Below, piece after piece: positions 11,125 through 26,086 of a DNA stretch of 64,000 bases. The DNA comes from Gemmobacter caeruleus (GTDB lineage: Bacteria > Pseudomonadota > Alphaproteobacteria > Rhodobacterales > Rhodobacteraceae), in NCBI RefSeq assembly GCF_008271655.1, contig NZ_VKKX01000033.1:248001-312000 (forward strand), in the 5' to 3' direction. How positions within the stretch are numbered: the stretch's first letter is position 1; each line of letters begins with the position of its first letter. The notes under the pieces are model-generated. The model saw only the letters and a list, made by a program, of their open reading frames with translations. It was not told the DNA's origin and made no database searches. Position numbers and translations under genes: made by a program.

Positions 11125-12030
11125 TCAATCCTGATCTGGTGCGGCGCTGCTCGGCCCTGTGGCGGCGGAGCGAAAGGTCGCGCGATAGGCGGTCGGGGTC
11201 TGGCCCCGCGCCCGGCGAAACCGCCGCGCCAGATCGGCGGCATCGGAAAAGCCGCAGGCGCCGGCGATCTGCGCGATGGTCCGGTCGGTTTGCACCAGTT
11301 GTTGACAGGCCTGCCCCAGCCGCAGCTGCATGACATAGGCGCTGATCGACATACGGGCGCTGCGCCGGAAAATGCGCTGCAACTGGCTTTCGGTCAGATG
11401 CACCAGATCGCAGAGCGGCGCCAGGCGCAGCGGCTGGTCGTAATGCTGGTGCAGGTGATCCAGCACCTTTTGCAGCCGGGCACGATCGCGCGGCAGATCG
11501 CTGATCGTGACGGCATCGGCCGCCAGTGGCCTGCGGTCGGGCGCCGCGGCCAGCGCAACGAGCAGCGATTGCAGTGCCATGACCTGCGAAAGATCGTCCA
11601 TACCGCCCAGATCCAGAAACCGCTGGCGCAGCGCATCTGAGGTCGCGGGGCCGAAATGCAGCCCGCGCCGTGCCTGGGCCAGCAGATCGGCCACCGGCGA
11701 CAGCTCGGGCACGGCGCGGATCAGGCCGGCGGCCCAATCCTGCGTGAACCAGCAGACCACCGCGCGGTGCCGCGTGGCGCCCCCGGTCAGGCCGCGCGAC
11801 TGAAACGCATGGGGCAGGTTCGGCGCGATCAACACCAGATCACCGTCGCCATATTGCCCGACATGATCGCCGACAAAGCGCATCCCGTGGCTATCGACCG
11901 TCAGGGTCAGCTCGAATTCCGGGTGATAATGCCAGTTGAACGGAAATTCCGGCAATTGCCGGTCAAACACCAGAAGCGACCGGCCCGGTGCGATGGTCAC
12001 GGTTTCGAAATAGGGCGGCGCTATGGGCAT
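11125..12030 (-). CDS. AraC-family transcriptional regulator
   Basis: This 301-aa protein has an N-terminal cupin sensing domain (FNWHYHPEFELTL near residues 30-45, GDLVLIAPNLPHAF near 62-75). The C-terminal AraC/XylS double helix-turn-helix covers about 190-290, with FSDAADLARRFRRARGQTPTAYR as the second motif. The domain layout suits a regulator of sugar or sugar-acid catabolism. It is transcribed away from the GMC oxidoreductase gene with 112 bp between them, so it most likely controls that gene pair and itself. The inducer is unknown. Confidence 0.88.
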   Translation of the reverse strand: MPIAPPYFETVTIAPGRSLLVFDRQLPEFPFNWHYHPEFELTLTVDSHGMRFVGDHVGQYGDGDLVLIAPNLPHAFQSRGLTGGATRHRAVVCWFTQDWAAGLIRAVPELSPVADLLAQARRGLHFGPATSDALRQRFLDLGGMDDLSQVMALQSLLVALAAAPDRRPLAADAVTISDLPRDRARLQKVLDHLHQHYDQPLRLAPLCDLVHLTESQLQRIFRRSARMSISAYVMQLRLGQACQQLVQTDRTIAQIAGACGFSDAADLARRFRRARGQTPTAYRATFRSAATGPSSAAPDQD

Positions 12031-12142
12031 TGCGGATCATTTACCGTGATGGATGCGGCAATCATACAAGGATTCGCCGCTTTGGGGAATGGGCGCTGCG
12101 GGTGGCCTCTGGCATCAGGAAACGGTCAGGCGGGAGGCGGGC

Positions 12143-13654
12143 ATGGACAGCATTCAGGCGGATGTGGTGATCATCGGGTCGGGCGTCGGCGGCTCGGCCG
12201 TGGCGCATCGGCTGGTCGGCAGCGGTGCCCGGGTGCTGATGCTGGAGCGCGGCGATTTCCTGCCGAACGAGTCGCAGAACAGCGATGCCCGGGCGGTATT
12301 CGGCGAACAACGTTACAAGACGCGCGACATATGGTTTGACGCGCGGGGCGCGGCGTTCCGGCCGGGGCAATATTACCATGTCGGCGGGCATACCAAATTC
12401 TACGGCACAGCGATGTTCCGTTTCCGTGAATCGGATTTCGCGGCGACGGCGATTGACGGTATGACCTCGCCGGCCTGGCCCATCGGCTATGGGGATCTGG
12501 CGCCGTTCTATGCCGAGGCAGAGCAGCTTTACGGGGTGCGCGGGGCGGCAGGGTTCGACCCGACCGAGCCGCCGCGCGACGCCTTTCCGCATGCGGCCAT
12601 CCCGCATGAGCCGGTGATCGCCCGGCTGGCCGAAGGGCTGGCGGCACAGGGGTTGCGGCCTTTCCCCATGCCTTCGGCGGTGGATTACGGCCCGGGCGGC
12701 ACCTGCCGGCGTTGCGACAGTTGCGATGCCTTTGCCTGCCGCTTTGGCGCCAAGGGCGATGCCGAGACGCGGGTCTTGCGCCCCTTGCTGGCGCAGGGCG
12801 ATTTTCGGTTGGAGCGGCGGACGGAGGTGAGGCGGCTGATCCTTGACGATCAGGGCCGGCATGTCGTGGCGGCCGAGGCGCTGCGCGAGGGCGTGCCGAT
12901 CCGGGTGGAGGCGCCGGTTTTCGTGCTGTCGGCCGGGGCGATCAATTCGGCGCTGATCCTGTTGCGCTCGGCCTGTGACGCGGCGCCGGCGGGGGTGGCG
13001 AACCGCTCGGGCGTGGTGGGGCGCTATCTGATGAACCACCACTTGACAGGGCTGATGGGCATCCGGCCGCTGGCGGTGAACGACACGCGCTTTCCCAAGA
13101 CATTGGCGATCAACGATTTCTATCATGGCCTGCCGGGCGACGAGGGCGCGCGGGGCAACATGCAGATGCTGGGCAATATCCGGGGGGCGATGATCCGTCC
13201 GGCCTATCCGGCGCTGCCCGGCCCGCTGGCCGATTGGCTGGGCCGGCATTCCGTCGATGTGCTGGCCATGTCGGAAGACCTGCCCGACCGCGACAGCCGC
13301 GTGCGGCTGTTGCCGGGGGACCGGGTCGAGGTGGATTATCGCCCCGGCGGCACCGCGGCGCATGACCGCTTTGTGCGGCATCTGCGGGGCGTGCTGCGGC
13401 GCGCGGGCTTTCCGCTGGTGCTGCGTCACCGCTTTGGCATTCAGGCGCCGTCACATCAATGCGGCACGGTGCGGATGGGCCATGACCCCGCACAATCGGC
13501 GCTGGACGGTCTGTGCCGGGCGCATGACCACCCCAATCTGCATGTGGTGGACGGGGGGTTCCTGCCCTCATCCGCCGCGCTGAACCCGGCCCTGACCATC
13601 GCCGCGCAGGCGCTGCGGGTCGGTGCCCATCTGCGCGCCCGTCGCGCGCCCTGA
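12143..13654 (+). CDS. GMC-family FAD oxidoreductase
   Basis: This 503-aa glucose-methanol-choline oxidoreductase has the FAD-binding VVIIGSGVGGSAVAHRL at residues 8-24, LERGDF, and the C-terminal SHQCGTVRMG and ALNPALTIAAQAL, which carry the active-site His and Asn. A cysteine-rich segment GTCRRCDSCDAFACRFGAK lies mid-protein, as in some membrane-linked sugar and alcohol dehydrogenases of this family; whether it binds metal is unknown. The ATG at 12143 follows a GGGAGG ribosome site. It forms a two-gene unit with the shikimate-dehydrogenase-like gene 20 bp downstream and faces an AraC regulator. The substrate is likely a polyol or sugar but cannot be read from sequence. Confidence 0.87.
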   Translation: MDSIQADVVIIGSGVGGSAVAHRLVGSGARVLMLERGDFLPNESQNSDARAVFGEQRYKTRDIWFDARGAAFRPGQYYHVGGHTKFYGTAMFRFRESDFAATAIDGMTSPAWPIGYGDLAPFYAEAEQLYGVRGAAGFDPTEPPRDAFPHAAIPHEPVIARLAEGLAAQGLRPFPMPSAVDYGPGGTCRRCDSCDAFACRFGAKGDAETRVLRPLLAQGDFRLERRTEVRRLILDDQGRHVVAAEALREGVPIRVEAPVFVLSAGAINSALILLRSACDAAPAGVANRSGVVGRYLMNHHLTGLMGIRPLAVNDTRFPKTLAINDFYHGLPGDEGARGNMQMLGNIRGAMIRPAYPALPGPLADWLGRHSVDVLAMSEDLPDRDSRVRLLPGDRVEVDYRPGGTAAHDRFVRHLRGVLRRAGFPLVLRHRFGIQAPSHQCGTVRMGHDPAQSALDGLCRAHDHPNLHVVDGGFLPSSAALNPALTIAAQALRVGAHLRARRAP

Positions 13655-13674
13655 CCCGAGGGAGGAGAAGACCG

Positions 13675-14517
13675 ATGAACTTTCTGTTGCCGCTGACCGG
13701 ATCCTTTGCGCAGCCCGCCGCCGAGAACCCGACCGTCGCGATGATCGAGGCCGCCTTTGCGCATCACGGGCTGGACTGGCGTTACCTCAATGTCGAGGTG
13801 GCGCCCGCGGATCTGGGCGATGCGGTGCGCGGTGCGCGGGCGATGGGGTGGCGGGGGTTCAACTGCTCCATCCCGCACAAGGTGGCGGTGATCGCGCATC
13901 TGGATGGGCTGGGCCAGTCGGCGCAGATCATCGGCGCGGTGAATACCGTGGTGCGGCAGGGTGACCGCCTGATCGGCGAGAATACCGATGGCCGCGGCTT
14001 TGTCGCCGCCCTGCGCCAGGAGGTCGATCCTGCGGGCAAGGCGGTGGTGTTGTTCGGCGCCGGTGGGGCGGCGCGGGCGGTGGCGGTCGAGATGGCGCTG
14101 GCCGGGGCGCGGCAGATCACCATCGTCAACCGGAGTGCGGGGCGCGGGCAGGCTCTGGTCGATCTTTTGAACGATCGCACCCCGGCGCAGGCCCGGTTGG
14201 CGATCTGGGATGGCCCCTTTGCCGTGCCGGCCGGGACCGATATCGTGATCCATGCGACCTCGGTCGGGCTTTACCCTGATGTGGAGGCGATGCCCGCGAT
14301 CGCGATCGAAAGCCTGACCCCGGCCATGGTGGTGGCCGATGGCATCCATAACCCGCCGCTCACGCCCCTGTTGCGGGCCGCGCAGGCACGGGGCTGCCGC
14401 ACGGTCGATGGGCTGGGCATGCTGGTGCAGCAGGGGGTGATCGGTTTGAAATACTGGACCGGGGTCGATGCCGATCCGCAGGTGATGCGGCAGGCCTTGC
14501 TGGCGCTGCGGCTCTGA
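13675..14517 (+). CDS. Shikimate dehydrogenase-like NAD(P)-dependent oxidoreductase (atypical)
   Basis: This 280-aa protein has the AroE fold: SIPHK with the catalytic Lys69, GAVNT with Asn90, ENTDG with Asp105, and the Rossmann motif VLFGAGGAARAVAVEMALAGA. The N-terminal SxS motif that holds the shikimate carboxylate in AroE is missing; the same place reads GSFAQPAAENPTV. It therefore probably acts on a related hydroxy or keto acid rather than being the housekeeping AroE. A GGGAGGAGAA ribosome site precedes the ATG. It follows the GMC gene by 20 bp and converges on oiaK with only 5 bp between them, at the edge of the apiose block. Confidence 0.8.
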   Translation: MNFLLPLTGSFAQPAAENPTVAMIEAAFAHHGLDWRYLNVEVAPADLGDAVRGARAMGWRGFNCSIPHKVAVIAHLDGLGQSAQIIGAVNTVVRQGDRLIGENTDGRGFVAALRQEVDPAGKAVVLFGAGGAARAVAVEMALAGARQITIVNRSAGRGQALVDLLNDRTPAQARLAIWDGPFAVPAGTDIVIHATSVGLYPDVEAMPAIAIESLTPAMVVADGIHNPPLTPLLRAAQARGCRTVDGLGMLVQQGVIGLKYWTGVDADPQVMRQALLALRL

Positions 14518-14522
14518 CCGGA

Positions 14523-15893
14523 TCAGCGCGGGCCGCCGCCGGCGCGGATCCAGCCAAAGTAATCTTCGCTGCCCATCTGCCCGCCCTTCAGCGCCAGTTC
14601 CAGCCCGTCATGCGGCCCGTCGCCATGGGCGCGGAACAGCGCCGCCCCGGGAATGGTGGGCGCAAGGGCCGAGAGCGCGAACAACCCGAGCTGCGCCGTG
14701 CCATGGCCCGACGTATCGCCGCCCGAGATCACCGCCCGGCGCAGGCCGGATTGGCGCAGGATCGTCTCCAGCACCCGGCCAAGCGCGGCGCCGATACGGG
14801 TATTCACCCGATCGGCTGGCAGGCCGCTGGTGGCGATGGCATCGCGCAGCGCGGCGACGGCGGGGTCGTCCGGGCCGGCGGCGCTGTGGATCAGCGGGCT
14901 TTGTCCGCGGTCCAGCGCGGCCAGGGCGGCGGCGATGGCGCGGCCTTCCTCGGCGGCAAGGTCGGCCTCGCTGCCGCAGGCGGCGCGGGCGTCCAGGCGG
15001 ATGCCGGCAAAGCCGTTTTCCAGCGACCAGCCGATCTGCCCCGCCGTGATCGGCGAGACCGAGCCGGAGACCGCCACGATCCGCGCCACCGCCCCGGCAG
15101 ATTGCGGCGGCGGGGCGTCGGGCAGCAGCCCCTTGTCCTGCCAGTGGCGGATCAGCGCATATTCCACCCCCTGCGACCCGACCGCGACCGGCATCCGGTC
15201 GCGATTGCGCCACAAGAGCCGGCCCACGGCGGTTTCGCTCGTGCTGTCCATCATGTCGCACAGGATCAGCCGCGCGCCGGCCTGCAAGGCATGGTCCAGC
15301 CGGGCCTGTGCGGTGTCGGGGCTGTGCAGGGTCTCCAGATCCAGCAGGGCGGGGGGCAGGTCGGTCTGCCCCGCCAGATGGCGCGCGACATCGGATTCGG
15401 TCATCGGGGTCACCGGATGGCGCGCCATGACCGGGTGGCGATCCAGCCGGAACACCCCGTCGGGCGTGCCGGCGAACAGATGACCGAAGGCCTGATAGCG
15501 GCGCATCTGCGGTGCGGCGACCACGACACTCGCCGCCTGCCCGCCCCGCGCCGCCAGCGCGAGTTCGGTGCCTTTGCCGATCGACCCGATCCCCGGCGCG
15601 GAGTCGAGGGTGGAGCAGATCTTCCAGTGCAAAAGCGGCGCCCCCAGCCCTGCCAGAAAACCCAGCGGTGCCGGCATGTTGGCCTGCATCCAGCCCGGAT
15701 CCTGCGCCCGCGCGGTCGAGGCGATGCCGATGCCGCGCAGACCCGGAAACCGCGCCAGCCGTTCCGGCGTCGGGGTATCGAGGAACAGGATGGCGGGCAG
15801 GCCGGCGAAATGCAGCACCTCCATCACCGCGGCAGAGCCGGTGAAATCGTCGCCATACCAGGCGATCAGCAGGCCGGGGGGCAAAGCGGTCAT
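14523..15893 (-). CDS. oiaK: 3-oxo-isoapionate kinase (DUF1537 / four-carbon acid sugar kinase family)
   Basis: This 456-aa DUF1537 kinase has the N-terminal DDFTGSAAVMEVL motif, KICSTLDSAPGIGSIGKG near residue 90-107, and the C-terminal nucleotide-binding SGGDTSGH and KGGQMGSEDYF. DUF1537 enzymes phosphorylate four- or five-carbon sugar acids. With ApnO and a RuBisCO-like protein as neighbours, the best fit is OiaK, which makes 3-oxo-isoapionate 4-phosphate in the D-apiose pathway. It is transcribed divergently from apnO across a 132-bp region that holds a perfect 16-bp inverted repeat. The domain is clear; the substrate is inferred from context. Confidence 0.82.
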   Translation of the reverse strand: MTALPPGLLIAWYGDDFTGSAAVMEVLHFAGLPAILFLDTPTPERLARFPGLRGIGIASTARAQDPGWMQANMPAPLGFLAGLGAPLLHWKICSTLDSAPGIGSIGKGTELALAARGGQAASVVVAAPQMRRYQAFGHLFAGTPDGVFRLDRHPVMARHPVTPMTESDVARHLAGQTDLPPALLDLETLHSPDTAQARLDHALQAGARLILCDMMDSTSETAVGRLLWRNRDRMPVAVGSQGVEYALIRHWQDKGLLPDAPPPQSAGAVARIVAVSGSVSPITAGQIGWSLENGFAGIRLDARAACGSEADLAAEEGRAIAAALAALDRGQSPLIHSAAGPDDPAVAALRDAIATSGLPADRVNTRIGAALGRVLETILRQSGLRRAVISGGDTSGHGTAQLGLFALSALAPTIPGAALFRAHGDGPHDGLELALKGGQMGSEDYFGWIRAGGGPR

Positions 15894-15909
15894 ATCGGGC
15901 CTCGGTGTT

Positions 15910-15932
15910 TTACTGGTATGATGAGTATATCA
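15910..15932. promoter_or_regulatory. Operator site 1 (oiaK/apnO intergenic)
   Basis: Bases 15910-15925 form the left arm of a perfect 16-bp inverted repeat whose right arm is at 15979-15994. Bases 15915-15932 (GGTATGATGAGTATATCA) recur exactly, in opposite orientation, in the second divergent region of this cluster. The core TGAT-GAGTAT-ATCA is itself palindromic. On the minus strand it contains TATACT, a good -10 for oiaK, so binding would block that promoter. Confidence 0.65.
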
Positions 15933-15935
15933 TTG

Positions 15936-15964
15936 TTGCGGATTGGCAAGAAGCAATCTATGCT
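15936..15964 (+). promoter_or_regulatory. Candidate apnO promoter
   Basis: -35 TTGCGG (15936-15941), a 17-bp spacer and -10 TATGCT (15959-15964). It sits between the two operator arms, so a regulator bound at both could loop or block it. The match is moderate and was judged by eye. Confidence 0.35.
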
Positions 15965-15978
15965 GCGCCAAAGGTTAC

Positions 15979-15994
15979 CTCATCATACCAGTAA
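15979..15994. promoter_or_regulatory. Operator site 2 (right arm of the inverted repeat)
   Basis: CTCATCATACCAGTAA is the exact reverse complement of 15910-15925, with a 53-bp gap between arms. It lies just downstream of the candidate apnO transcription start and 31 bp before the apnO ATG. The core CTCATCATACC also occurs at 18171-18181 upstream of oiaX. Confidence 0.6.
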
Positions 15995-16025
15995 GGCGCT
16001 GGTTCCGGGAGGATTGGAGGAAGAC

Positions 16026-16853
16026 ATGACAACGATCGCTTTGTTCGGTGCAGGCGGCAAGATGGGCGTGCGCCTGTCGCGTAACCTGGCCGCGACCGAT
16101 TTCACGGTGCGCCATGTAGAGGTGAGCGAGGCCGGGCAGGCGCGGCTCAAGGCCGAGGTCGGCGTCGATTGCATGGCCCCCGCCGTCGCGATCGACGGGG
16201 CGGATGTGGTGATCCTTGCGGTGCCCGATACCGTCATCGGCAAGGTCGCGGCCGGCATCGTGCCGCAGCTTGCACCCGGAACGATGGTGGTCTGCCTTGA
16301 CGCAGCGGCACCCTTTGCCGGCCATCTGCCGCAGCGCGACGACCTGACCTACTTCGTCACCCATCCGTGCCACCCGCCGATCTTCAACAACGAATCCACG
16401 CCAGAGGGGCGGCGCGATTTCTTTGGGGGGGTGGCGGCGCAGCAAGGCATCGTGAATGCGCTGATGCAGGGCCCCGAGGCGCATTATGCACTGGGAGAGG
16501 CCGTGGGCCGCGCGATCTATGCCCCCGTCGCCCGCAGCCATCGCGTGACGGTGGAACAGATGGCCATCCTCGAACCCGGCCTGTCGGAGACCGTCTGCGC
16601 CTCGCTTCTGGTGGTGATGCGCGAGGCGATGGACGAGGCGGTGGCGCGGGGCGTGCCGAAAGAGGCGGCGCGCGACTTTCTGCTCGGCCATATGAACATC
16701 CTCGGCGCCGTGATCTTTGAAGAGGTGCAGGGCGTGTTCTCGGATGCCTGCAACAAGGCGATCGAATTCGGCAAGCCCGTGCTGATGCGCGATGACTGGA
16801 AGCGCGTGTTCGAACCCGAGGAAATCGCCGCCTCGATCCAGCGGATCACCTGA
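16026..16853 (+). CDS. apnO: D-apionate oxidoisomerase (6-phosphogluconate-dehydrogenase-like)
   Basis: This 275-aa NAD-dependent enzyme has the N-terminal Rossmann motif ALFGAGGKMGVRLSRNL, DVVILAVPD, and the stretch THPCHPPIFNNES near residue 117-128 that I associate with the ApnO group. The family resembles 6-phosphogluconate dehydrogenase. ApnO oxidises and isomerises D-apionate to 3-oxo-isoapionate. I chose the ATG at 16026 because GGGAGGATTGGAGG precedes it; the frame is open far upstream, but only as a shadow of oiaK. It converges on oiaX with a shared terminator hairpin between them. Fold and motif are seen; the substrate follows from the full set of pathway genes. Confidence 0.82.
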   Translation: MTTIALFGAGGKMGVRLSRNLAATDFTVRHVEVSEAGQARLKAEVGVDCMAPAVAIDGADVVILAVPDTVIGKVAAGIVPQLAPGTMVVCLDAAAPFAGHLPQRDDLTYFVTHPCHPPIFNNESTPEGRRDFFGGVAAQQGIVNALMQGPEAHYALGEAVGRAIYAPVARSHRVTVEQMAILEPGLSETVCASLLVVMREAMDEAVARGVPKEAARDFLLGHMNILGAVIFEEVQGVFSDACNKAIEFGKPVLMRDDWKRVFEPEEIAASIQRIT

Positions 16854-16860
16854 CGAAAAG

Positions 16861-16881
16861 GGGCGCCGCGCAGCGGCGCCC
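16861..16881. terminator. Bidirectional terminator between apnO and oiaX
   Basis: A perfect 9-bp stem GGGCGCCGC / GCGGCGCCC closes on a GCA loop. It is flanked by AAAAG on the left and CTATTT on the right, so it could terminate both converging genes. Its last base is part of the oiaX stop codon. Confidence 0.6.
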
Positions 16882-18140
16882 TATTTGAGGAACTTCGCGA
16901 GACTGGCGGCCAGTTCGGGGTGGTCGCGGGCGTAATCGTCCAGCGTCACCCCGGCCTCGGCGGCCGCCCAGGCCTGACGGATGGCGCGCACGCCGTCGGC
17001 CGGGCCCCCCGGATGGCCATGAATGCCGCCACCGCCCAGATACATCAGATCGAGCCGCCCGCCGGTGCGGGCAAAGGTCTCGGGCGCCTGGCCGCCCCAT
17101 TGGCCGGAACAGACCACCGGCAGGGCGCGGTCGGCCTCGGAAAAGATCGGCGTCAGGCAGGCGTCAAACGATCTGACAAAGCTGTCATCGGGTTCCCAGT
17201 ATTTCGCGGCGATCCCGTTGACCTGAAACTGATCGACGCCCAGCAGCCGCCAGATCTTGTGCCAGGCGCGGAATTCCAGCCCAAGCGCGGGGTGCCGGGT
17301 CAGGATATCCCATCCGTTGCGATGCGCATGCAGGCACAGCGCCGAACGCCGGCGCAGAAAGCTCATGCCGCCATAGCCGATGGAGTTGATGTTGATCACC
17401 GCCGCATTGCCGCCCGCCGCCAGCACGCAATCATGGTTGCGCATCATCTCGTCCGGGTCGGCGGCCGAGATGCCAAAGGCATACATCACGCGCTTGCCGG
17501 TGCGTTGTTCATGGTCGCGGATCACCGGCATGATCGCCGCGACCCGCGCCGCCAGCGGCGAATAGGCCGGGCTCATCAGCTTTTCATCGTCCTTGATGAA
17601 ATCCACCCCTGCCGCGCAGAGGGTGCGAACCACCGCCGCGGTATCTTCGGGGGAAAGCCCCAGCGAGGGTTTGATGATCGAGGCGATCATCGGCCCGCGC
17701 GCCACGCCCATCAGCCGGCGTGACCCTTCGATGCCGAATTGCGGGCCGGGGTGGCAGGCCCATTCCGGCGGCAGGTCGATATCCATCACCCGGATGCCGG
17801 TCAGCCCGCGCGCGGCAAAGACCCCGCCCACGGCGATGGTCATCAGGGCGGCGATATCGGTGCCCACGGCCTCCAGCGGGTAGCCGATCACCGCATCGGC
17901 GCGGTTGTATCGCGTGCCCGCCGGGGCGTCGGGCTGTGGAAAGCCGGGGGTTTCCGTGACGGGCAGGGGGGTGAGCGAAATCACCCGCGCCGCATAGCGG
18001 GCCTTGAGTGCGGCGGTTTCGCCGGGCAGGTCGGTAAAGGTGCCGGTCGATTGATCCGCCGCGATCTTGGCGGCCATGGCTTCGGGGTGGCCGGCTGTCT
18101 CGATCCGATAGGTTACCCGGATTTCCGCCCTGTCCGTCAT
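16881..18140 (-). CDS. oiaX: RuBisCO-like protein, 3-oxo-isoapionate-4-phosphate transcarboxylase/hydrolase
   Basis: This 419-aa RuBisCO-superfamily protein keeps the metal-site lysine, Asp and Glu in FIKDDEKL (K183, D185, E186; Lys201/Asp203/Glu204 in plant RuBisCO). It also keeps the lysine of IIKPSLG (K157), HAHR (271-274), a loop lysine K313, S345 in CSGQWGG, and the phosphate-binding GGGG at 369-372. The second lysine of the RuBisCO KPK motif is serine here, so it is not a CO2-fixing RuBisCO. With OiaK and ApnO present it fits OiaX, giving 3-phosphoglycerate plus glycolate. The ATG at 18140 follows GGGAGGG; upstream in-frame TTG and ATG codons are less likely. Confidence 0.85.
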   Translation of the reverse strand: MTDRAEIRVTYRIETAGHPEAMAAKIAADQSTGTFTDLPGETAALKARYAARVISLTPLPVTETPGFPQPDAPAGTRYNRADAVIGYPLEAVGTDIAALMTIAVGGVFAARGLTGIRVMDIDLPPEWACHPGPQFGIEGSRRLMGVARGPMIASIIKPSLGLSPEDTAAVVRTLCAAGVDFIKDDEKLMSPAYSPLAARVAAIMPVIRDHEQRTGKRVMYAFGISAADPDEMMRNHDCVLAAGGNAAVININSIGYGGMSFLRRRSALCLHAHRNGWDILTRHPALGLEFRAWHKIWRLLGVDQFQVNGIAAKYWEPDDSFVRSFDACLTPIFSEADRALPVVCSGQWGGQAPETFARTGGRLDLMYLGGGGIHGHPGGPADGVRAIRQAWAAAEAGVTLDDYARDHPELAASLAKFLK

Positions 18141-18163
18141 CGCGCCCTCCCTCATTTGCAAAT

Positions 18164-18193
18164 TGATATACTCATCATACCTGTTGACATCAA
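18164..18193 (-). promoter_or_regulatory. oiaX promoter with built-in operator
   Basis: Minus strand: -35 TTGATG (18193-18188), exactly 17 bp, then -10 TATATC (18170-18165). The spacer and -10 contain the 18-bp motif of operator site 1 (18164-18181 here). Any protein bound to it would cover the oiaX promoter. On the plus strand a perfect TTGACA (18184-18189) abuts the motif and may be the -35 of the transport operon, though no clear -10 follows. Confidence 0.6.
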
Positions 18194-18257
18194 GATCATT
18201 CTACCTCAACGTCCATCTCGTCAGTGTGGAGACCGCGACCGTTCCGGCGCGGACTGA

Positions 18258-19214
<957 letters not shown>

Positions 19215-19227
19215 GCCCGCGCCTTTC

Positions 19228-19253
19228 GGGTCCGGCGCCGCGCCGGACCCTTT
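19228..19253 (+). terminator. Intra-operon hairpin after the binding-protein gene
   Basis: GGGTCCGGC and GCCGGACCC form a 9-bp stem with a 5-nt loop, followed by TTTCCCC. Such leaky hairpins after the first gene commonly let the binding protein be made in excess over the membrane parts. The T-run is short, so partial read-through is expected. Confidence 0.55.
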
Positions 19254-19272
19254 CCCCTATTCGGAGCCGCCC

Positions 19273-19932
19273 ATGACCTGCCGCGCGCCGCATGTGCTTT
19301 TCGTCATCGTGCTGGGCCTGATGCCCCTGACGGGCTGCAAGATCGTCAAGACCCCGGAACCCGGTTCGGAAGCCGCCGGTTCCGCCACGGCCACCCCCGC
19401 CGATGATGCCGCCCGCATGGCGCGGATGGCGGCCGAAATCTTTGCGGCCAAGGTCGTGCCCTTTGTCGCCGAACAGGCGGTGGATCTGTCCACCCTGCGC
19501 GATGCGGTTGCGGGCGGGCTGGATGCCGCCGGCGCACAGCATGGCCACCGCCCGGAAAGCGAGGGCAGCCCCTGGAATTTCCTGGTGAAAGGGCAGGGCA
19601 AGGTGGTCAAGGCCGATACCGCCAGCCGCGCGGCAAAGCTGGAACTGGACAGCGACGGCGACGGGGTGGCGGATGTGACCGTGCAGCTTGGCCCTGTGAT
19701 CAAGGGCACCTCGCTGCGCGATGCCGCCGATTTCCTGGTCTTTACCGATTTCCGCGATCAGATCGAATTCGCCAAGCTGGCCCGCGCCCTGAATGACGAG
19801 GCGCACAAGGCGCTGCGCCTGCCAGAGGGCGATCTGACCGGCCGACGCTTTGCCTTTGAGGGCGCGTTGACCTTGCGTGCCAAGGGCGATGCCCTGCTGC
19901 TGGTGCCCACGCAATTGTCCGAGGTGCCGTGA
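19273..19932 (+). CDS. DUF2291 family lipoprotein
   Basis: This 219-aa protein has a lipoprotein signal with lipobox LTGC (cysteine at residue 21), so it is predicted to be membrane-anchored in the periplasm. The body contains SPWNFLVKGQGKVV, a DSDGDGVADV segment and LRDAADFLVFTDFRDQIEFAKLARALN, which match my knowledge of DUF2291 proteins found beside sugar ABC transporters. No function is established. It lies between the binding-protein gene and the ATPase gene, and its stop overlaps the ATPase start (TGATG), implying it is made in step with the transporter. The ATG at 19273 was chosen because it begins the signal peptide. Confidence 0.75.
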   Translation: MTCRAPHVLFVIVLGLMPLTGCKIVKTPEPGSEAAGSATATPADDAARMARMAAEIFAAKVVPFVAEQAVDLSTLRDAVAGGLDAAGAQHGHRPESEGSPWNFLVKGQGKVVKADTASRAAKLELDSDGDGVADVTVQLGPVIKGTSLRDAADFLVFTDFRDQIEFAKLARALNDEAHKALRLPEGDLTGRRFAFEGALTLRAKGDALLLVPTQLSEVP

Positions 19933-21467
19933 TGGATCATCCGGTCGGCTTGCAGATCCGCGGCGGGACCAAGGTCTATCCCGGCACGCGGGCGCTGAAA
20001 TCGGTGGATTTCGACCTGCGCATGGGCGCGGTCAATGTGCTGGTGGGCGAGAATGGCGCCGGCAAATCCACCATGATGAAGGTCATTGCCGGGGTCGAGC
20101 AACTGACCGAGGGCCGCATCCTCATGCAGGATCGCGAGGTGCATTTCCGGGGCACCGACGATGCCCGCCGCCATGGCATCGGCATCGTGTTCCAGGAACT
20201 GAACCTGTTTCCCAACATGACGGTGGCGGAAAACATCTTCATCGGGCGCGAGATCACACGGGGCGGCGTCGATATCGACATGGAGACGCAGCGCGCCGCC
20301 ACAAGACGCCTGATGGAACGGCTGGAACATGACATCCATCCCGACACCCCGGTTGCAGAGCTGCGCGTGGGTCAGCAGCAGATCGTGGAAATCGCCAAAT
20401 CGCTGGCCCAGGATGCGCGCATCCTGATCCTGGACGAACCGACCTCAGCCCTTTCTGCCGCCGAGGTGGAGATCCTGTTCCGCGTCATTGCCGAATTGAA
20501 GCGTGACGGGGTCGGCATCGTCTATATCTCGCACCGGCTGGAGGAACTGATCCGCATCGGCGATTACATCACCGTCCTGCGCGATGGCACCATCACCGGC
20601 GCGCGGGCCATGGCGGGGGTGGATGTGCCCTGGATCGTGCGCAACATGATCGGCGAGGCGTCCAAGGACTTCGCGAAAGAGGTCGAACACCCGTTCGGGG
20701 CCGAGATCTTTCGTGCCGAGGATGTCTGTCTGCCGCGTGCCGGCGGCGGGCTGGCGGTCGATCACGTCTCGCTTTCGCTGCGCGCGGGCGAGATCGTGGG
20801 GGTTTATGGGCTGATGGGCGCCGGCCGGTCGGAGTTTCTGGAATGCGTGATCGGCCGTCACCCCCATGCCACCGGGCAGATGGCCATTGCGGGAGAGCCG
20901 CTGCGCGACCGCAGCATTGCCGGGCGTATCGCCCGGGGCATCGCGCTGATCCCCGAGGATCGCAAGAATGACGGGCTGATCCAGATGGCCAGCATCCGCG
21001 AGAACATGACCCTGTCGAGCCTGGGCCGCTTTACCCGGTTGTTCCACATGGTTCTGGGTGCCGAACGTCGGGGCGTCGCCGAATTCGTGAAACGGCTGAC
21101 GGTGAAGATCGCCTCGATGGAAAACCCGGTTTCCAGCCTGTCGGGCGGGAACCAGCAAAAGGTGGTGATCGGCAAGGCGCTGATGACCACGCCCAAGGTG
21201 CTGTTGATGGACGAACCCTCACGCGGGATCGACATCGGCGCCAAGGCCGAGGTGTTCCGCACCATGCGTCAGCTTGCGGCGCAGGGGCTGGGCATCCTGT
21301 TCGTGACCTCGGATCTGGAAGAGGTCATGGCCCTGTCGGACCGCATCATCGTGATGTCCGAGGGCCGCATCACCGGAGAATTCGACCGCGGCACGGCGAC
21401 CGAAACCGCCGTCATCGCCGCCGCGGCGCCCGGACAGGGCCGCCCCGCACAGGAGCTTGTTGCATGA
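19932..21467 (+). CDS. Sugar ABC transporter ATP-binding protein, RbsA type
   Basis: This 511-aa ATPase has two fused ABC domains. The first has Walker A GENGAGKSTMMK, signature LRVGQQQIVEIAKSL and Walker B ILILDEPTSAL. The second has a divergent P-loop YGLMGAGRSEFLE, signature LSGGNQQKVVIGKAL and VLLMDEPSRGID. This is the standard ribose/xylose/galactose importer layout, in which the second P-loop lacks the usual GKS/T. The ATG at 19932 overlaps the DUF2291 stop and the stop overlaps the permease ATG, so the three are translationally coupled. It powers uptake of the sugar bound by the 18.3-kb binding protein. Confidence 0.93.
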   Translation: MDHPVGLQIRGGTKVYPGTRALKSVDFDLRMGAVNVLVGENGAGKSTMMKVIAGVEQLTEGRILMQDREVHFRGTDDARRHGIGIVFQELNLFPNMTVAENIFIGREITRGGVDIDMETQRAATRRLMERLEHDIHPDTPVAELRVGQQQIVEIAKSLAQDARILILDEPTSALSAAEVEILFRVIAELKRDGVGIVYISHRLEELIRIGDYITVLRDGTITGARAMAGVDVPWIVRNMIGEASKDFAKEVEHPFGAEIFRAEDVCLPRAGGGLAVDHVSLSLRAGEIVGVYGLMGAGRSEFLECVIGRHPHATGQMAIAGEPLRDRSIAGRIARGIALIPEDRKNDGLIQMASIRENMTLSSLGRFTRLFHMVLGAERRGVAEFVKRLTVKIASMENPVSSLSGGNQQKVVIGKALMTTPKVLLMDEPSRGIDIGAKAEVFRTMRQLAAQGLGILFVTSDLEEVMALSDRIIVMSEGRITGEFDRGTATETAVIAAAAPGQGRPAQELVA

Positions 21468-22528
21468 GCCACGCCGCCACCCATCCGCCCACCGGCGCCG
21501 CCGCGCCCAATCTGGGCCTGCTGGTGCTGAAGGCGCGCACCTTCATCGCCCTGATCCTGGTCTTTGCCTTTTTCGCCGTGGCCGCACCGAATTTCCTGTC
21601 GGCGGCGAATATGGTGATCATGTCGAAACATGTGGCGCTGAACGCCTTTCTGGCCATCGGCATGACCTTTGTCATCATCTCGGGCGGGATCGACCTGTCG
21701 GTCGGCTCCATCGTCGGGCTTTGCGGCATGGTCGCGGGCTGGCTGGTGCTTTATGGCGTCGATTTCGGGCTGGGCTGGTCGATCCAGTTCAACACGCTGG
21801 AAATTTGCCTGATCGTCTGTCTGGTCGGTATCGCCATCGGCGCGGTGAACGCGCTGCTCATCACCCGGCTGAACGTCGCGCCCTTCATCGCGACGCTGGG
21901 CACGCTTTACATCTGCCGGGGGGCGGCGATGCTGTCCTCGGACGGGCGCACCTTTCCCAACCTGAATGGCAGCGCGGAATACGGGTCGGAGAGTTTCCGC
22001 CAGATCGGGGCTGGCAGCCTGCTGGGCCTGCCGATCTCGATCTGGATGCTGATCGTGGTGGCGGCGCTGGCCGCCTATATCTCGCGGCGCACGCCGCTGG
22101 GGCGCTATATCTACGCTGTCGGCGGCAATGAACGCGGCGCCGCCCTGTCAGGGGTCAAGGTCAACCGGATCAAGCTGTTCGTCTACATGTTCTCGGGGTT
22201 TTGCGCGGCGCTGGTCGGGCTGATCGTCAGCTCGCAGCTTGTCGCGTCGCACCCCGCCACGGGCGAGACGTTCGAGCTGAACGCCATCGCGGCGGCGGTG
22301 CTGGGCGGCACCTCGATGTCGGGCGGGCGCGGGCGGATCGGGGGCACGATCATCGGGGCCTTCGTGATCGGCGTTCTGTCGGACGGTCTGGTGATGATGG
22401 GCGTCTCGGCCTTCTGGCAGACGGTGATCAAGGGGCTTGTCATTGTGGCCGCCGTGGTGGTGGATCAGGCACAGCAGAAACTTCAGGCCCGCGTCGCGTT
22501 GCAGGCGCAGGCCGCACTGGGGAAATGA
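21464..22528 (+). CDS. Sugar ABC transporter permease, RbsC type
   Basis: This 354-aa polytopic membrane protein has about eight to ten hydrophobic segments and the RbsC-family motifs TFVIISGGIDLSVGSIVGL, GRYIYAVGGNERGAALSGV and ELNAIAAAVLGGTSMSGG; the last two regions contact the ATPase or line the channel in this family. The ATG at 21464 overlaps the end of the ATPase gene (ATGA). Only one permease is encoded, so it probably forms a homodimer, as for RbsC. One base separates it from apsD, tying transport to the first catabolic step. Confidence 0.93.
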   Translation: MSHAATHPPTGAAAPNLGLLVLKARTFIALILVFAFFAVAAPNFLSAANMVIMSKHVALNAFLAIGMTFVIISGGIDLSVGSIVGLCGMVAGWLVLYGVDFGLGWSIQFNTLEICLIVCLVGIAIGAVNALLITRLNVAPFIATLGTLYICRGAAMLSSDGRTFPNLNGSAEYGSESFRQIGAGSLLGLPISIWMLIVVAALAAYISRRTPLGRYIYAVGGNERGAALSGVKVNRIKLFVYMFSGFCAALVGLIVSSQLVASHPATGETFELNAIAAAVLGGTSMSGGRGRIGGTIIGAFVIGVLSDGLVMMGVSAFWQTVIKGLVIVAAVVVDQAQQKLQARVALQAQAALGK

Positions 22529-22529
22529 C

Positions 22530-23549
22530 ATGCTGAACGGTGCCCTGATCGGATGCGGCTTCTTTGCACAGAACCAGATGCATGGCTGGGCCGGCATCGA
22601 GGGGGTGCGGATCGTCGCGGTCTGTGACCGCGACGCGACCCGCCGCGATGAAACCGCCGCCCGTTTTGGCGCCCGGCCTTATGCCGATGCGGCCGCGATG
22701 CTGGCGGCGGAACGGCTGGATTTCGTGGATATCGCGACCACCGTCGCCTCGCATCGCCCGCTGGTGGAACTGGCGGCGGGGGCGGGGCTGCATGTGATCT
22801 GTCAAAAGCCCTTTGCCGAAACGACGGCCGATGCCCGCGCCATGGTCGAAGCGGTGGAGCGTGCCGGCAAGACGCTGATGATACACGAGAATTTCCGATG
22901 GCAATCGGCGGTGCGCGCCGCGATCTCTGCCATCCGCGACGGTGCCGTGGGCAGGCCGTTTTTTGGGCGCGTCACTTTTCGGTCGGGCTATGATGTCTAT
23001 GCCGGTCAGCCCTATCTGGCGACGGATGAGCGGTTCATCATTCAGGATCTGGGTATTCACATTCTGGATATCGCGCGCGCGCTGTTCGGCGATGTCGCGA
23101 CGATCAGCGCCACCACGCGCCGTGTGAACCCGCGTATCCGGGGCGAGGATGTCGCGACCATGCTGCTGGAACATGAGGGCGGTGCGACGTCGGTGGTGGA
23201 TTGTTCCTATGCCACGCGGCGCACGCCCGAGACCTTTCCCGAAACCCTGCTGGAGATCGACGGCGATCTGGGCAGCTTGCGGCTGGAGGCCGGCTACCGG
23301 CTGGTGATCCAGCGTGACGGCGAACAGACCCTGCGCGATGTGGCGCCGCCGGTCCTGCCCTGGGCATCGCGGCCCTGGCACAACATTCAGGAAAGCGTGC
23401 AGATCATCCAGCAACATTTCGTGGATTGCCTGCGCGCGGGCGGGGTGCCTGAAACCTCGGGTCAGGACAATCTGAAGACGCTGGCGCTGGTGGAGGCGGC
23501 CTATGTCTCGGCGCGCGAGGGCACGCGCATTGATCTGCGGGGCTGGTGA
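22530..23549 (+). CDS. apsD: D-apiose dehydrogenase (Gfo/Idh/MocA family)
   Basis: This 339-aa oxidoreductase has the N-terminal NAD-binding motif ALIGCGFFAQNQMHGW and the family's lysine motif as CQKPFAETTADA near residues 90-101 (EKP in most members). The C-terminal part carries GHxxD-like features (IIQDLGIHILDIARALFG). In the D-apiose pathway ApsD oxidises the sugar to apionolactone. The ATG at 22530 follows the permease stop by one base, and the gene's own stop overlaps the lactonase start. The family is clear; the specific substrate is inferred from the complete set of neighbours. Confidence 0.78.
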   Translation: MLNGALIGCGFFAQNQMHGWAGIEGVRIVAVCDRDATRRDETAARFGARPYADAAAMLAAERLDFVDIATTVASHRPLVELAAGAGLHVICQKPFAETTADARAMVEAVERAGKTLMIHENFRWQSAVRAAISAIRDGAVGRPFFGRVTFRSGYDVYAGQPYLATDERFIIQDLGIHILDIARALFGDVATISATTRRVNPRIRGEDVATMLLEHEGGATSVVDCSYATRRTPETFPETLLEIDGDLGSLRLEAGYRLVIQRDGEQTLRDVAPPVLPWASRPWHNIQESVQIIQQHFVDCLRAGGVPETSGQDNLKTLALVEAAYVSAREGTRIDLRGW

Positions 23550-25312
23550 TGGAGGCGCGCGCGCTCTATGGCACCGAGGCTCCGCCCGCGCTGCAACAGC
23601 GGTTGGTTGCAGGGCCGGTCTCGCTGGGGCTGGAGGGTGGCAATCTGCGCCATCTGCGTCATGGCGAGACCGAGCTGATCCGCGCAGTGGCCTTTCTGGT
23701 GCGTGACCGCGACTGGGGCACGCTGGCGCCCGAAATCCGCGATCTGCGCATCGAGGTGGGCGATGAAACGCGCGTCAGCTATACCGCGCATTTCGACAGC
23801 GGGGTGGCGCGGCTTGCGGTGGATGTGACGATCCGCCTGACCGCTGGCCTCCTGCGCTTTGCCGCCGAGGCGCGGGCGACCGGCGATTTCGAGACCAACC
23901 GCACCGGCTTTACGGTGCTGCACCCGATCGAGGGTGTGGCCGGTGCGCCGCTGCGGGTGGAACATGGCGATGCCCTGGCCGAAGACAGCCAGTTTCCCGT
24001 GCTGATCGCGCCGTGGCAGCCCTTTCAGAATATCACCGGGCTGATTCATCAGGCGGGCGGGCTGCGGGTGACCTGCCGGTTCGAGGGTGATGTCTTCGAG
24101 ATGGAGGATCAACGGCAATGGGGCGATGCCAGCTACAAGACCTATGTGCGCCCGCTGGCCCTGCCCTGGCCCTATTGCATCGCCGATGGCAGCGTGATCC
24201 GGCAGGCGGTGGAAATCCGGTGGGAGGCGGTGGCGCCGGCCGCCCCGGTCGCGCCGCTGCGTTGTGTCGTGCCGGATGCGGTCTTTCCTGAAACCGCCTT
24301 GCTGCTGGACGCGGCCGAGGCCGCGCGCCCCGATGCGCCGGCGCTGATCCGTCAGATCGGGCCGCAGCGCCTTTTGTGCCATCTGGATGCGGCGGCGGGG
24401 CATGGGCTGACCGAGCTGCGGGCCTTTGCCGATTTGCAGGCGCGTCTGCCTGAATGCGCGTTCGATCTGGAGCTGATCGCGCACTGTCGTCCCGACGGTG
24501 ATCTGACCGCAGAATTTACCGGCCATGCCGCCGATCTGGCGCGTGCGGGGTTCCACCCGGCCTCGGTCATGGTCTGCCCCGCGGTCGATCGGCAATCGAC
24601 GCCGCCCGGGTCGGAATGGCCGGCCTGCACGCCGCTGGAGGCGATCCATCGCGCCGCGCGCGCGGCCTTTGCCGGTATCGCGCTGGGCGGCGGCATGGCA
24701 AGTTTCTTTCCCGAGCTGAACCGCAAGCGCCCGCCGGTGGCGCTGCTGGATTTCGTGAGCCATGGGCTGTGCCCCATCGTGCATGCGGCTGACGATCTTT
24801 CGGTGATGGAGACGCTGGAGACGGTGCCGCATATCATGCTTTCGGCGCAGGCGATCGCGGCGGGCGCGGCGCGGCGGCTTGGCCCTTCGACCCTCGCGAT
24901 GCGGCAAAACCCCTATGGCAGCCGCACTTTGCCCAATCCGGGGCGGGGGCGGGTCTGCATGACCGACGATGACCCGCGTCAGGATGGCGCCTTTGCGGCC
25001 GCCTGGACACTGGGCCTTGCCACGCAGATCGCCCCGGCCGGGTTGCAGGTCTGGACACCCGCCGGGTTGACCGGGCCGCGCGGGCTGTTTCACACCGATG
25101 GAAGGGCGCGGCCGCTGGCGGCGGTGGTGGCGCGACTGGCGGGGCTTGCCGGCCAGCCGGTCAATGCGGCGGAACTGGGCGGCGGCCGGTCGCGGCTGGC
25201 CTGTGGGGCGCGCGTGCTGGAGGCGAACCTGACCGCCACCGCGCAGGGGCCCCTGCCGCCCTATGGCTGGCGCGAGGATTTGCAAGCGGGACGGCAAGGC
25301 ACTATGCCTTGA
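23549..25312 (+). CDS. apnL: Probable D-apionate lactonase
   Basis: This 587-aa cytoplasmic protein (no signal peptide) has no motif I can tie to a well-known hydrolase. It carries RTGFTVLHPI near residue 115-125 and the conserved-looking MEDQRQWGDASYKTYVRPL near 185-203. A large protein of this kind next to ApsD fits ApnL, which opens apionolactone to D-apionate. The ATG at 23549 overlaps the apsD stop (TGATG); a GTG three bases upstream is the alternative. It is the last enzyme of the operon before the GntR regulator. The assignment is mainly from position and length. Confidence 0.68.
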   Translation: MEARALYGTEAPPALQQRLVAGPVSLGLEGGNLRHLRHGETELIRAVAFLVRDRDWGTLAPEIRDLRIEVGDETRVSYTAHFDSGVARLAVDVTIRLTAGLLRFAAEARATGDFETNRTGFTVLHPIEGVAGAPLRVEHGDALAEDSQFPVLIAPWQPFQNITGLIHQAGGLRVTCRFEGDVFEMEDQRQWGDASYKTYVRPLALPWPYCIADGSVIRQAVEIRWEAVAPAAPVAPLRCVVPDAVFPETALLLDAAEAARPDAPALIRQIGPQRLLCHLDAAAGHGLTELRAFADLQARLPECAFDLELIAHCRPDGDLTAEFTGHAADLARAGFHPASVMVCPAVDRQSTPPGSEWPACTPLEAIHRAARAAFAGIALGGGMASFFPELNRKRPPVALLDFVSHGLCPIVHAADDLSVMETLETVPHIMLSAQAIAAGAARRLGPSTLAMRQNPYGSRTLPNPGRGRVCMTDDDPRQDGAFAAAWTLGLATQIAPAGLQVWTPAGLTGPRGLFHTDGRARPLAAVVARLAGLAGQPVNAAELGGGRSRLACGARVLEANLTATAQGPLPPYGWREDLQAGRQGTMP

Positions 25313-25333
25313 GGAGCGCCGCAAGGAGAAGCC

Positions 25334-26086
25334 ATGACCCGCCGAGCCAACCCGATTGCCCCGTCAGATCCTGCCGGTGCCCCCGTGGCGGAAAAGATCG
25401 TGCGGCGCAAGCTTTCGGATCAGGTCTTTGACCGCCTGCGCGACCTGATCGCGCGCGGTGAATTGCAGGCGGGCGATCCGATGCCCTCCGAGCGCGACCT
25501 GATGGAGCGTTTCGGTGTGGGCCGCCCCGCCGTGCGCGAGGCGTTGCAATCCATGCATACGATGGGTCTGATCACCATCGCCCATGGCGAACGCAGCCGG
25601 GTGAACGAATTGAATGCCGGCAGCGTGCTGAACCGGGTGGACGAGGTGGCACGGCTTCTGCTGTCGGCCGAGCCGGGGCAGCTTGACCATCTGAAAGAGG
25701 CGCGCGGCATGTTTGAATGCGGGGTGGTGCGCCGGGCGGCCGAAACGGCCGATGATGGCGCCGTGGCCGATCTGCGCGGCCTGGTGGCGCAGCAGCGTGA
25801 TCGGCTGGGCGATCCGGCGGCCTTTGTCGCGGCGGATGTGGCCTTTCACGCGCGCATCGCGGCCATGACCGGCAATCCGATCATCGCGGCGGTCAGCCAG
25901 GCCATGCTGGGCTGGCTGTTCCAGTATCACGGCGGATTGCTGCACTGGTCGGGCAATGAGGACACGACGCTGCGCGAGCATGACGAGATCGTCAATCTGA
26001 TCGCCGCGCGCGACGGCGAAGGTGCGGCGCAGGCGATGCGGCGGCATCTTGACCGTTCTAATGACTACTACCGCCATCCGGGCTGA
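25334..26086 (+). CDS. GntR/FadR-family transcriptional regulator
   Basis: This 250-aa regulator has a winged helix-turn-helix at about residues 26-92 (LSDQVFDRLRDLIARGEL, PSERDLMERFGVGRPAVREAL). An FCD effector domain follows, with likely metal-binding histidines in DVAFHARIA, REHDEIV and MRRHLDRS. The domain order resembles NanR-type FadR regulators. A GCAAGGAGAAGCC ribosome site precedes the ATG, 21 bp after apnL, so it is the last gene of the transport and catabolic operon. It is the natural candidate to bind the repeated GGTATGATGAG motif at 15.9 and 18.2 kb and to respond to a pathway intermediate. Confidence 0.88.
   Translation: MTRRANPIAPSDPAGAPVAEKIVRRKLSDQVFDRLRDLIARGELQAGDPMPSERDLMERFGVGRPAVREALQSMHTMGLITIAHGERSRVNELNAGSVLNRVDEVARLLLSAEPGQLDHLKEARGMFECGVVRRAAETADDGAVADLRGLVAQQRDRLGDPAAFVAADVAFHARIAAMTGNPIIAAVSQAMLGWLFQYHGGLLHWSGNEDTTLREHDEIVNLIAARDGEGAAQAMRRHLDRSNDYYRHPG

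Follow-up and report, generated by a model that had tools for sequence, protein, structure and literature searches.

A probable OiaX-type (decarboxylase) gene cluster for D-apiose catabolism in Gemmobacter caeruleus, with the genes for the final two steps on another contig

Introduction

The bacterial route for D-apiose runs through apionolactone, D-apionate and 3-oxo-isoapionate, and after phosphorylation it reaches a RuBisCO-like protein (RLP). Decarboxylation by the RLP OiaX leaves L-erythrulose-1-phosphate, and a TIM-like and an RpiB-like isomerase are needed to reach D-erythrose-4-phosphate; the transcarboxylase/hydrolase branch yields 3-phosphoglycerate and glycolate, reportedly the products given by Carter et al. 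in 2018, and needs no isomerases. Decarboxylation and transcarboxylation/hydrolysis of 3-oxo-isoapionate-4-phosphate are described for RLPs of Agrobacterium radiobacter K84 and Xanthobacter autotrophicus respectively (PMC6302742); and Rhodobacteraceae strain LCG007, with the enzymes ApsD, ApnL, ApnO, OiaK and OiaX, grew on D-apiose as sole carbon source, so that the pathway and its presence in this family are already known (PMC11747546). Here we analyse a locus at positions 14523-26086 of a 64,000-nucleotide stretch of Gemmobacter caeruleus (contig NZ_VKKX01000033.1, 248,001 to 312,000; hereafter the window). With a probability of roughly 85%, we read it as a D-apiose catabolic cluster of the OiaX type, with an importer, five enzymes and, on another contig (C52), the isomerases that would lead to D-erythrose-4-phosphate. 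What the locus adds to a known pathway is another decarboxylase-type D-apiose cluster, one whose final two steps depend on genes at another place in the genome.

Results

Gene content of the locus

The ten genes at 14523-26086 are all open reading frames, and all match the families expected of them:

14523-15893, minus strand: oiaK-like gene, putative 3-oxo-isoapionate kinase, DUF1537-type with SBD_N/NBD_C (NF042436, PF07005, PF17042)
16026-16853, plus strand: apnO, predicted D-apionate oxidoisomerase (PF16896 PGDH_C, 246 bits)
16881-18140, minus strand: oiaX, predicted RuBisCO-like 3-oxo-isoapionate-4-phosphate decarboxylase (NF042437, OiaX clade, residue signature)
18273-19214, plus strand: solute-binding protein (SBP) of the putative D-apiose importer (5ibq and 4ry0 are the best solved chains)
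19273-19932, plus strand: DUF2291 periplasmic lipoprotein of the importer (PF10054, 174.9 bits; ATG at 19273)
19929-21467, plus strand: importer ATPase, RbsA type (PF00005, two stretches)
21464-22528, plus strand: importer permease, RbsC type (PF02653; NF007067 at 267.6 bits, cut-off 398)
22530-23549, plus strand: apsD, predicted D-apiose dehydrogenase, Gfo/Idh/MocA (PF01408, PF22725, PF02894)
23546-25312, plus strand: apnL-like gene, putative D-apionate lactonase (NF049900, its sole NCBIfam match)
25334-26086, plus strand: NanR-like GntR/FCD regulator (NF003011, PF00392, PF07729)

The kinase and RLP genes lie on the minus strand and the other eight on the plus strand, so that the two largest intergenic gaps (15894-16025 and 18141-18272, 132 bp each with ATG starts), both divergent, should hold promoters. 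The original prediction, made from the same DNA, had the named enzymes, an importer and a regulator clustered with no gap above 132 bp, and this layout is borne out. Its five enzyme names held as to expected families and best models, but for OiaK and ApnL the named model is only the best match, below its cut-off. The DUF2291 lipoprotein gene, absent from the genes listed in that prediction, sits between the SBP and ATPase genes.

Eighty related OiaX loci (1.56 Mb) were fetched, of which 61 are full-length (at least 21200 bases). Homologues of OiaK, ApnO, ApsD and ApnL all accompany OiaX in 38 of these 61, which argues that the gene set is not a chance assembly. Adjoining oiaK lie an AraC-type regulator, a GMC oxidoreductase and a shikimate-dehydrogenase-like gene (11125-14517), a group that does not recur at the other apiose loci. 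The latter two (12053-14517) were considered as cluster members and left out because they have no match of at least 35% identity among the other apiose loci.

Identity of the RuBisCO-like protein

The RLP is the only one in the genome, with no further RuBisCO-family match at E 0.001, and passes the OiaX decarboxylase equivalog model NF042437 with 778.6 bits (cut-off 700). With this model, 416-481 bits are reached by three further RLPs that have apiose-type or related genes as neighbours, and 41 genomes of a 390-genome sample, drawn at order level, hold an RLP at 370-461 bits. Genome counts that involve OiaX, other RLPs or the RpiB-like isomerase DerI are, here and below, among the matches listed, the weak end excluded; a copy of the window (L001), RLP matches below 100 bits and proteins of 330 amino acids or fewer were left out, and one genome with both RLP types (G185) was counted as OiaX.

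The original prediction had named an RLP and kinase outside the OiaX/OiaK clades as grounds for rejecting it; the RLP falls inside. In a tree of 109 rows, a single branch (SH-aLRT 100) unites the 82 OiaX rows and contains both the window protein and the OiaX of Rhizobium etli, and the nearest OiaX relatives of the window protein are from Gemmobacter. The tree came from a quick search with SH-aLRT values only and no bootstrap, and the program warned of long branches that are possibly misplaced (L117, L120, L110 and L004); L120 adjoins the OiaX branch, yet retains the RuBisCO residues.

These residues separate the two groups. All 82 OiaX rows have Asp at Glu60, Gly at Asn123, Gln at His327 and Cys or Gly at Ser379, the window protein having D36, G113, Q313 and C351 at these positions (426-amino-acid TTG form), whereas all 26 other RLPs retain the four RuBisCO residues. 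Lys175, Lys201, Asp203, Glu204, His294, Arg295 and Lys334 are retained in 108 of 108 rows, OiaX and other RLPs alike. At the columns of Glu60, Asn123 and His327, the printed alignment shows the RuBisCO residues unchanged in the solved RLP 3nwr. The numbering was placed by characteristic sequence motifs in L117, a form I protein from Paracoccus, together with published active-site lists (PMC5786004, PMC9570433). We infer that the replaced residues are those needed for CO2 recapture; if keeping Glu60, Asn123, His327 and Ser379 may be taken as the mark of a transcarboxylase/hydrolase, the window protein does not bear it. Since the model score, the clade, the residues and the isomerase co-occurrence described below agree, the RLP looks by its sequence like an enzyme of the OiaX decarboxylase kind. 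Taken together, these residues and the presence of the isomerases give a simple way to distinguish decarboxylases from other RLPs in apiose clusters.

In three genomes (G357, G180 and G319; loci L112, L113 and L114), an RLP of the other type, with 41-42% identity to OiaX, lies beside importer genes whose ATPase, permease and, where seen, SBP are 70-84% identical to those of the window; neither LerI-type (TIM-like) nor DerI-type isomerases appear for them among the matches listed. The RLP would thus seem to be an interchangeable part of a single kind of cluster. A metagenome-assembled genome labelled Acidimicrobiales bacterium DHS20C19 (Actinomycetota; L086) has an OiaX of 71% identity with LerI and DerI nearby, and this position inside an otherwise proteobacterial clade would reflect either transfer or a misbinned contig.

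Isomerases and the end of the route

The apiose locus itself has no TIM-like or RpiB-like isomerase gene. Both occur on contig C52 (207257-208482): a TIM-like protein (LerI/EryH) with 72% identity to its R. etli counterpart and, beside it, an RpiB-like protein (DerI/EryI) with 246.2 bits, over the cut-off of 240. They form part of a run encoding an FGGY kinase, a GlpD-like protein, a PF01261 protein, an iron-containing alcohol dehydrogenase, an LsrR/DeoR-like and a DeoR regulator, the TIM-like and RpiB-like proteins, a fructose-bisphosphatase and a class II aldolase. Apart from the alcohol dehydrogenase, C52 shows the ery gene order eryABCDRHI, as read from the run of locus tags in a published table (PMC5992420); the apiose locus therefore most likely relies on the EryH and EryI encoded there.

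The distribution of the genes points the same way. Within the 390-genome sample, OiaX over its cut-off occurs in 17 genomes, the DerI type at 223 bits or more in 42 (the next match being 168 or lower) and the LerI type at E 1e-60 or better in 41. Both isomerases are present in all 17 OiaX genomes; among the 373 genomes without OiaX, DerI is found in 25 and LerI in 24 (Fisher p about 1e-18 each). The 78 distinct genomes behind the 80 related loci (L034 not included; L033 and L061 being one genome) all carry a DerI-type match at 221 bits or more, although at least 11 of these share match coordinates with genomes of the 390 sample, so that some genomes enter both counts. In 21 of the 80 OiaX loci the fetched stretch includes an isomerase gene, and in none of the 26 other-RLP loci does it; of the 40 genomes whose RLPs are all of the other kind, 20 had their neighbourhoods fetched. 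A genome of the same genus as that of the window (G255) has the DerI and LerI types and no OiaX or ApnL match among the matches listed, from which the apiose locus appears to vary within the genus.

Most likely, then, the sugar would be turned into CO2 and erythrose-4-phosphate, an erythritol-type operon supplying the final two steps. The original prediction had called the route complete in one locus and had it end in 3-phosphoglycerate and glycolate, the latter to be handled elsewhere. Because the isomerases of the decarboxylase route sit on another contig, the locus alone is incomplete and glycolate is not an expected product, so that the question of its handling falls away; an EC 4.1.1.121 decarboxylase is also listed with the other four enzymes in the report on LCG007 (PMC11747546). 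The gene calls of that prediction were right; its end products and the label "complete" were most likely wrong. Glycolate handling as a missing step was likewise rejected: GlcD-type genes exist, but nothing suggests that glycolate is made.

An RLP acting as a transcarboxylase/hydrolase would make the five genes a complete route to 3-phosphoglycerate and glycolate and the isomerases incidental. The lack of an isomerase gene in the cluster would fit such an enzyme, as would the cluster of Paracoccus sp. TOH, whose RLP is 80% identical and which has no isomerase in the 31 kb shown, and the GlcD-type genes of the genome (five by the GlcD model, with the strongest match at C1:598264-599490 and none exceeding the cut-off of the model). 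However, the window protein passes the decarboxylase model, lies in the OiaX clade and carries the residue replacements, and both isomerases accompany OiaX in 17 of 17 genomes versus 4 of the 40 with only other RLPs. We therefore consider a transcarboxylase/hydrolase unlikely, and decarboxylation by OiaX the preferred reading.

Substrate, importer and upstream enzymes

In a sequence search, the best solved chains for the SBP were 5ibq (517 bits) and 4ry0 (516 bits). The latter is RHE_PF00037 of R. etli CFN 42, to which the SBP is a close relative with 83% identity (SBP model pLDDT 69.9, moderate confidence) and whose ligand we take to be D-apiose. The importer ATPase scores below the cut-offs of the XylG, AraG and RbsA models. 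ApsD has 5uhw as its best solved chain (442 bits), an A. radiobacter oxidoreductase that we take to be ApsD; the predicted structure (pLDDT 90.0) has the Gfo/Idh/MocA fold and superimposes on it with TM 0.93 at 59% identity. ApnO is a PF16896 dehydrogenase inside the apiose cluster with 75% identity to its R. etli counterpart, and its best solved chain is 5t57 (448 bits), presumably related to ApnO. The SBP, ApsD and the likeness of the cluster to that on R. etli p42f support D-apiose as the predicted substrate of the locus, and on this the original prediction stands.

Regulator and candidate operators

The regulator passes the NanR subfamily model NF003011 (295.9 bits, cut-off 260), and E. 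coli NanR binds GGTATA repeats (PMC8012715). Motif scans placed three candidate operators in the two divergent gaps:

15914-15932, plus strand: candidate operator 1, TGGTATGATGAGTATATCA, with the 11-bp core, in the oiaK/apnO gap
15979-15990, minus strand: candidate operator 2, 12-bp core, in the oiaK/apnO gap
18171-18182, minus strand: candidate operator 3, 12-bp core, in the oiaX/SBP gap

The 11-bp core GGTATGATGAG has three exact copies in the 3.99 Mb genome, all in these two gaps. With one mismatch allowed, it matches 19 places versus 9 for the reversed pattern, so that only the three exact copies are informative. The 12-mer WGGTATRATGAG occurs in 55 of the 80 related loci, with 79 copies where about 0.7 would be expected at equal base use and none of the reversed 12-mer. 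Every one of the 79 copies falls in the 350 bp upstream of a gene for the apiose route or for an isomerase, and such upstream regions account for 3.6% of the bases; in L023, L028, L044 and L052 the 12-mer stands upstream of LerI or DerI. The 12-mer was worded after an earlier, looser 19-mer scan of the same loci, when upstream sites had been seen, so that the count of 79 out of 79 cannot serve as an independent test; the near absence of the 12-mer from the rest of the 1.56 Mb can. The other-RLP loci hold 10 copies in 8 of 26, eight of the ten upstream of a listed gene. With up to five mismatches, 65 of the 83 loci carry the 19-mer upstream of a gene of the route, but shuffled loci gave 10 matches, and some of the matches in real loci lie inside oiaK or distant from route genes. 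Scans for sigma-70 promoters (none found, 1.6 expected) and terminator-like hairpins (4 found, 5.4 expected) were uninformative.

The NanR-like protein is the proposed owner of these candidate operators, and would probably act as a repressor at the GGTATRATGAG sites of both divergent gaps. With a candidate operator to hand, induction can be tested directly.

Discussion

In the proposed route, the importer would take up D-apiose, which ApsD would oxidise to apionolactone; the ApnL-like enzyme would open this to D-apionate, ApnO would convert D-apionate to 3-oxo-isoapionate and the OiaK-like kinase would phosphorylate the latter. OiaX would decarboxylate the kinase product to L-erythrulose-1-phosphate and CO2, and LerI/EryH and DerI/EryI of the C52 erythritol-type operon would carry L-erythrulose-1-phosphate to D-erythrose-4-phosphate. 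Catalysis by these proteins, their regulation and growth on D-apiose are thus predictions from sequence. Their use lies in correcting the predicted end products of the D-apiose route of this genome, and in naming two extra genes that growth would be predicted to need.

Several points weigh against this reading. The OiaX reference of the comparison is a protein known by annotation, that of R. etli, and the 26 other RLPs were set apart by sequence and not by known transcarboxylase activity. The DerI type occurs without OiaX in 25 genomes, the two isomerases are found together in 4 of the 40 genomes whose RLPs are all of the other kind, and the 17 OiaX genomes fall in 11 genera, so that they are not independent and the p-values overstate independence. 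The genome's own isomerase stretch (L090) has no copy of the 11-bp core with one mismatch or fewer, and its two copies with two mismatches, at 1201 and 8399, do not precede the isomerase run; with no core copy ahead of that run, the isomerases must be under other control. ApnO and ApsD passed no NCBIfam model, the kinase reaches 475.4 bits with the OiaK model NF042436 (cut-off 700; the best of three models) and the lactonase 666.6 bits with the ApnL model NF049900 (cut-off 750). Finally, PMC8914248 credits the R. etli orthologue of OiaX, RHE_RS26630, with a role in CO2 fixation.

The OiaK and ApnL scores falling below their cut-offs would suit a cluster for another branched sugar or sugar acid such as D-hamamelose, with the RLP acting on a related phosphorylated oxo-acid; an RLP in the D-hamamelose route of Ochrobactrum is described in PMC8914248 and also cited in PMC10176493, a route known here by description only. 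Kinases of other OiaX clusters also miss the OiaK cut-off (R. etli p42f 473.2 bits, Paracoccus TOH 441.3 bits). With NF049900 the Paracoccus TOH lactonase reaches 672.3 bits, and among 394 genomes from the family 31 show a match, none of them reaching 750, though the R. etli ApnL does pass with 1049.7 bits. Low scores as a sign of another substrate were for these reasons judged unlikely. With the SBP 83% identical to RHE_PF00037, OiaX over its cut-off and the five enzyme names identical in a strain that grew on D-apiose (PMC11747546), hamamelose or a similar substrate is very improbable.

Less probable still is that OiaX fixes CO2 as a carboxylase in vivo, the role put forward for its R. etli orthologue. 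RHE_RS26630 is the gene annotated oiaX, and mutants in it and in its R. phaseoli counterpart RHECIAT_RS30265 no longer recovered growth in subcultures, an effect seen on succinate in biotin-poor medium; a role in CO2 fixation was claimed (PMC8914248). Carboxylation is argued against by the replacement of Glu60, Asn123, His327 and Ser379 throughout the OiaX clade, and by the location of its genes in apiose clusters; moreover, the 14C values printed are 1047.3 for the R. phaseoli mutant versus 630.2 for wild type, contrary to the word "diminished" (PMC8914248). The residue signature and the isomerase pattern bear on that published claim. An apiose role gives no explanation for the biotin-poor succinate phenotype.

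A broader account of decarboxylase OiaX and its relatives seems to us evenly balanced between right and wrong. The decarboxylase clade may have swapped Glu60, Asn123, His327 and Ser379 for Asp, Gly, Gln and Cys or Gly and so lost CO2 recapture, relatives that keep them recapturing CO2 and hydrolysing; similar apiose importer clusters within one family would carry either enzyme, the choice following the erythritol-type isomerases of the host, and a NanR-like operator would be common to many of both.

Comparison with known systems

The cluster on p42f of R. etli CFN 42 shares all ten genes, with identities of 44% (kinase), 65% (OiaX), 75% (ApnO), 79% (SBP), 40% (DUF2291), 64% (ATPase), 69% (permease), 63% (ApsD), 45% (ApnL) and 51% (NanR-like regulator). 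Gene order differs, and the TIM and RpiB genes lie between those of the kinase and ApnO in R. etli but on another contig in the window's genome. Paracoccus sp. TOH plasmid p3 (L003) likewise has all ten genes, with OiaX at 80% identity and a different gene order. The order oiaK (minus), apnO (plus), oiaX (minus), SBP (plus) is shared by Gemmobacter sp. UBA12163 (L012; OiaX 86%, contig of 5.5 kb). The closest OiaX, at 87%, is that of Gemmobacter lanyuensis (L011; NZ_BMYQ01000014, 9820-19820), with importer, ApsD, ApnL and NanR genes alongside and no ApnO or OiaK match within the following 10 kb.

Compared by description, the cluster of strain LCG007 has the five enzymes in common, including the EC 4.1.1.121 decarboxylase (PMC11747546), and the Xanthobacter transcarboxylase/hydrolase branch shares an RLP acting on 3-oxo-isoapionate-4-phosphate (PMC6302742). 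For the last two steps the nearest counterpart is the Brucella-type eryABCDRHI set, whose order the C52 genes follow (PMC5992420), with an iron-containing alcohol dehydrogenase gene inserted and fructose-bisphosphatase and aldolase genes following.

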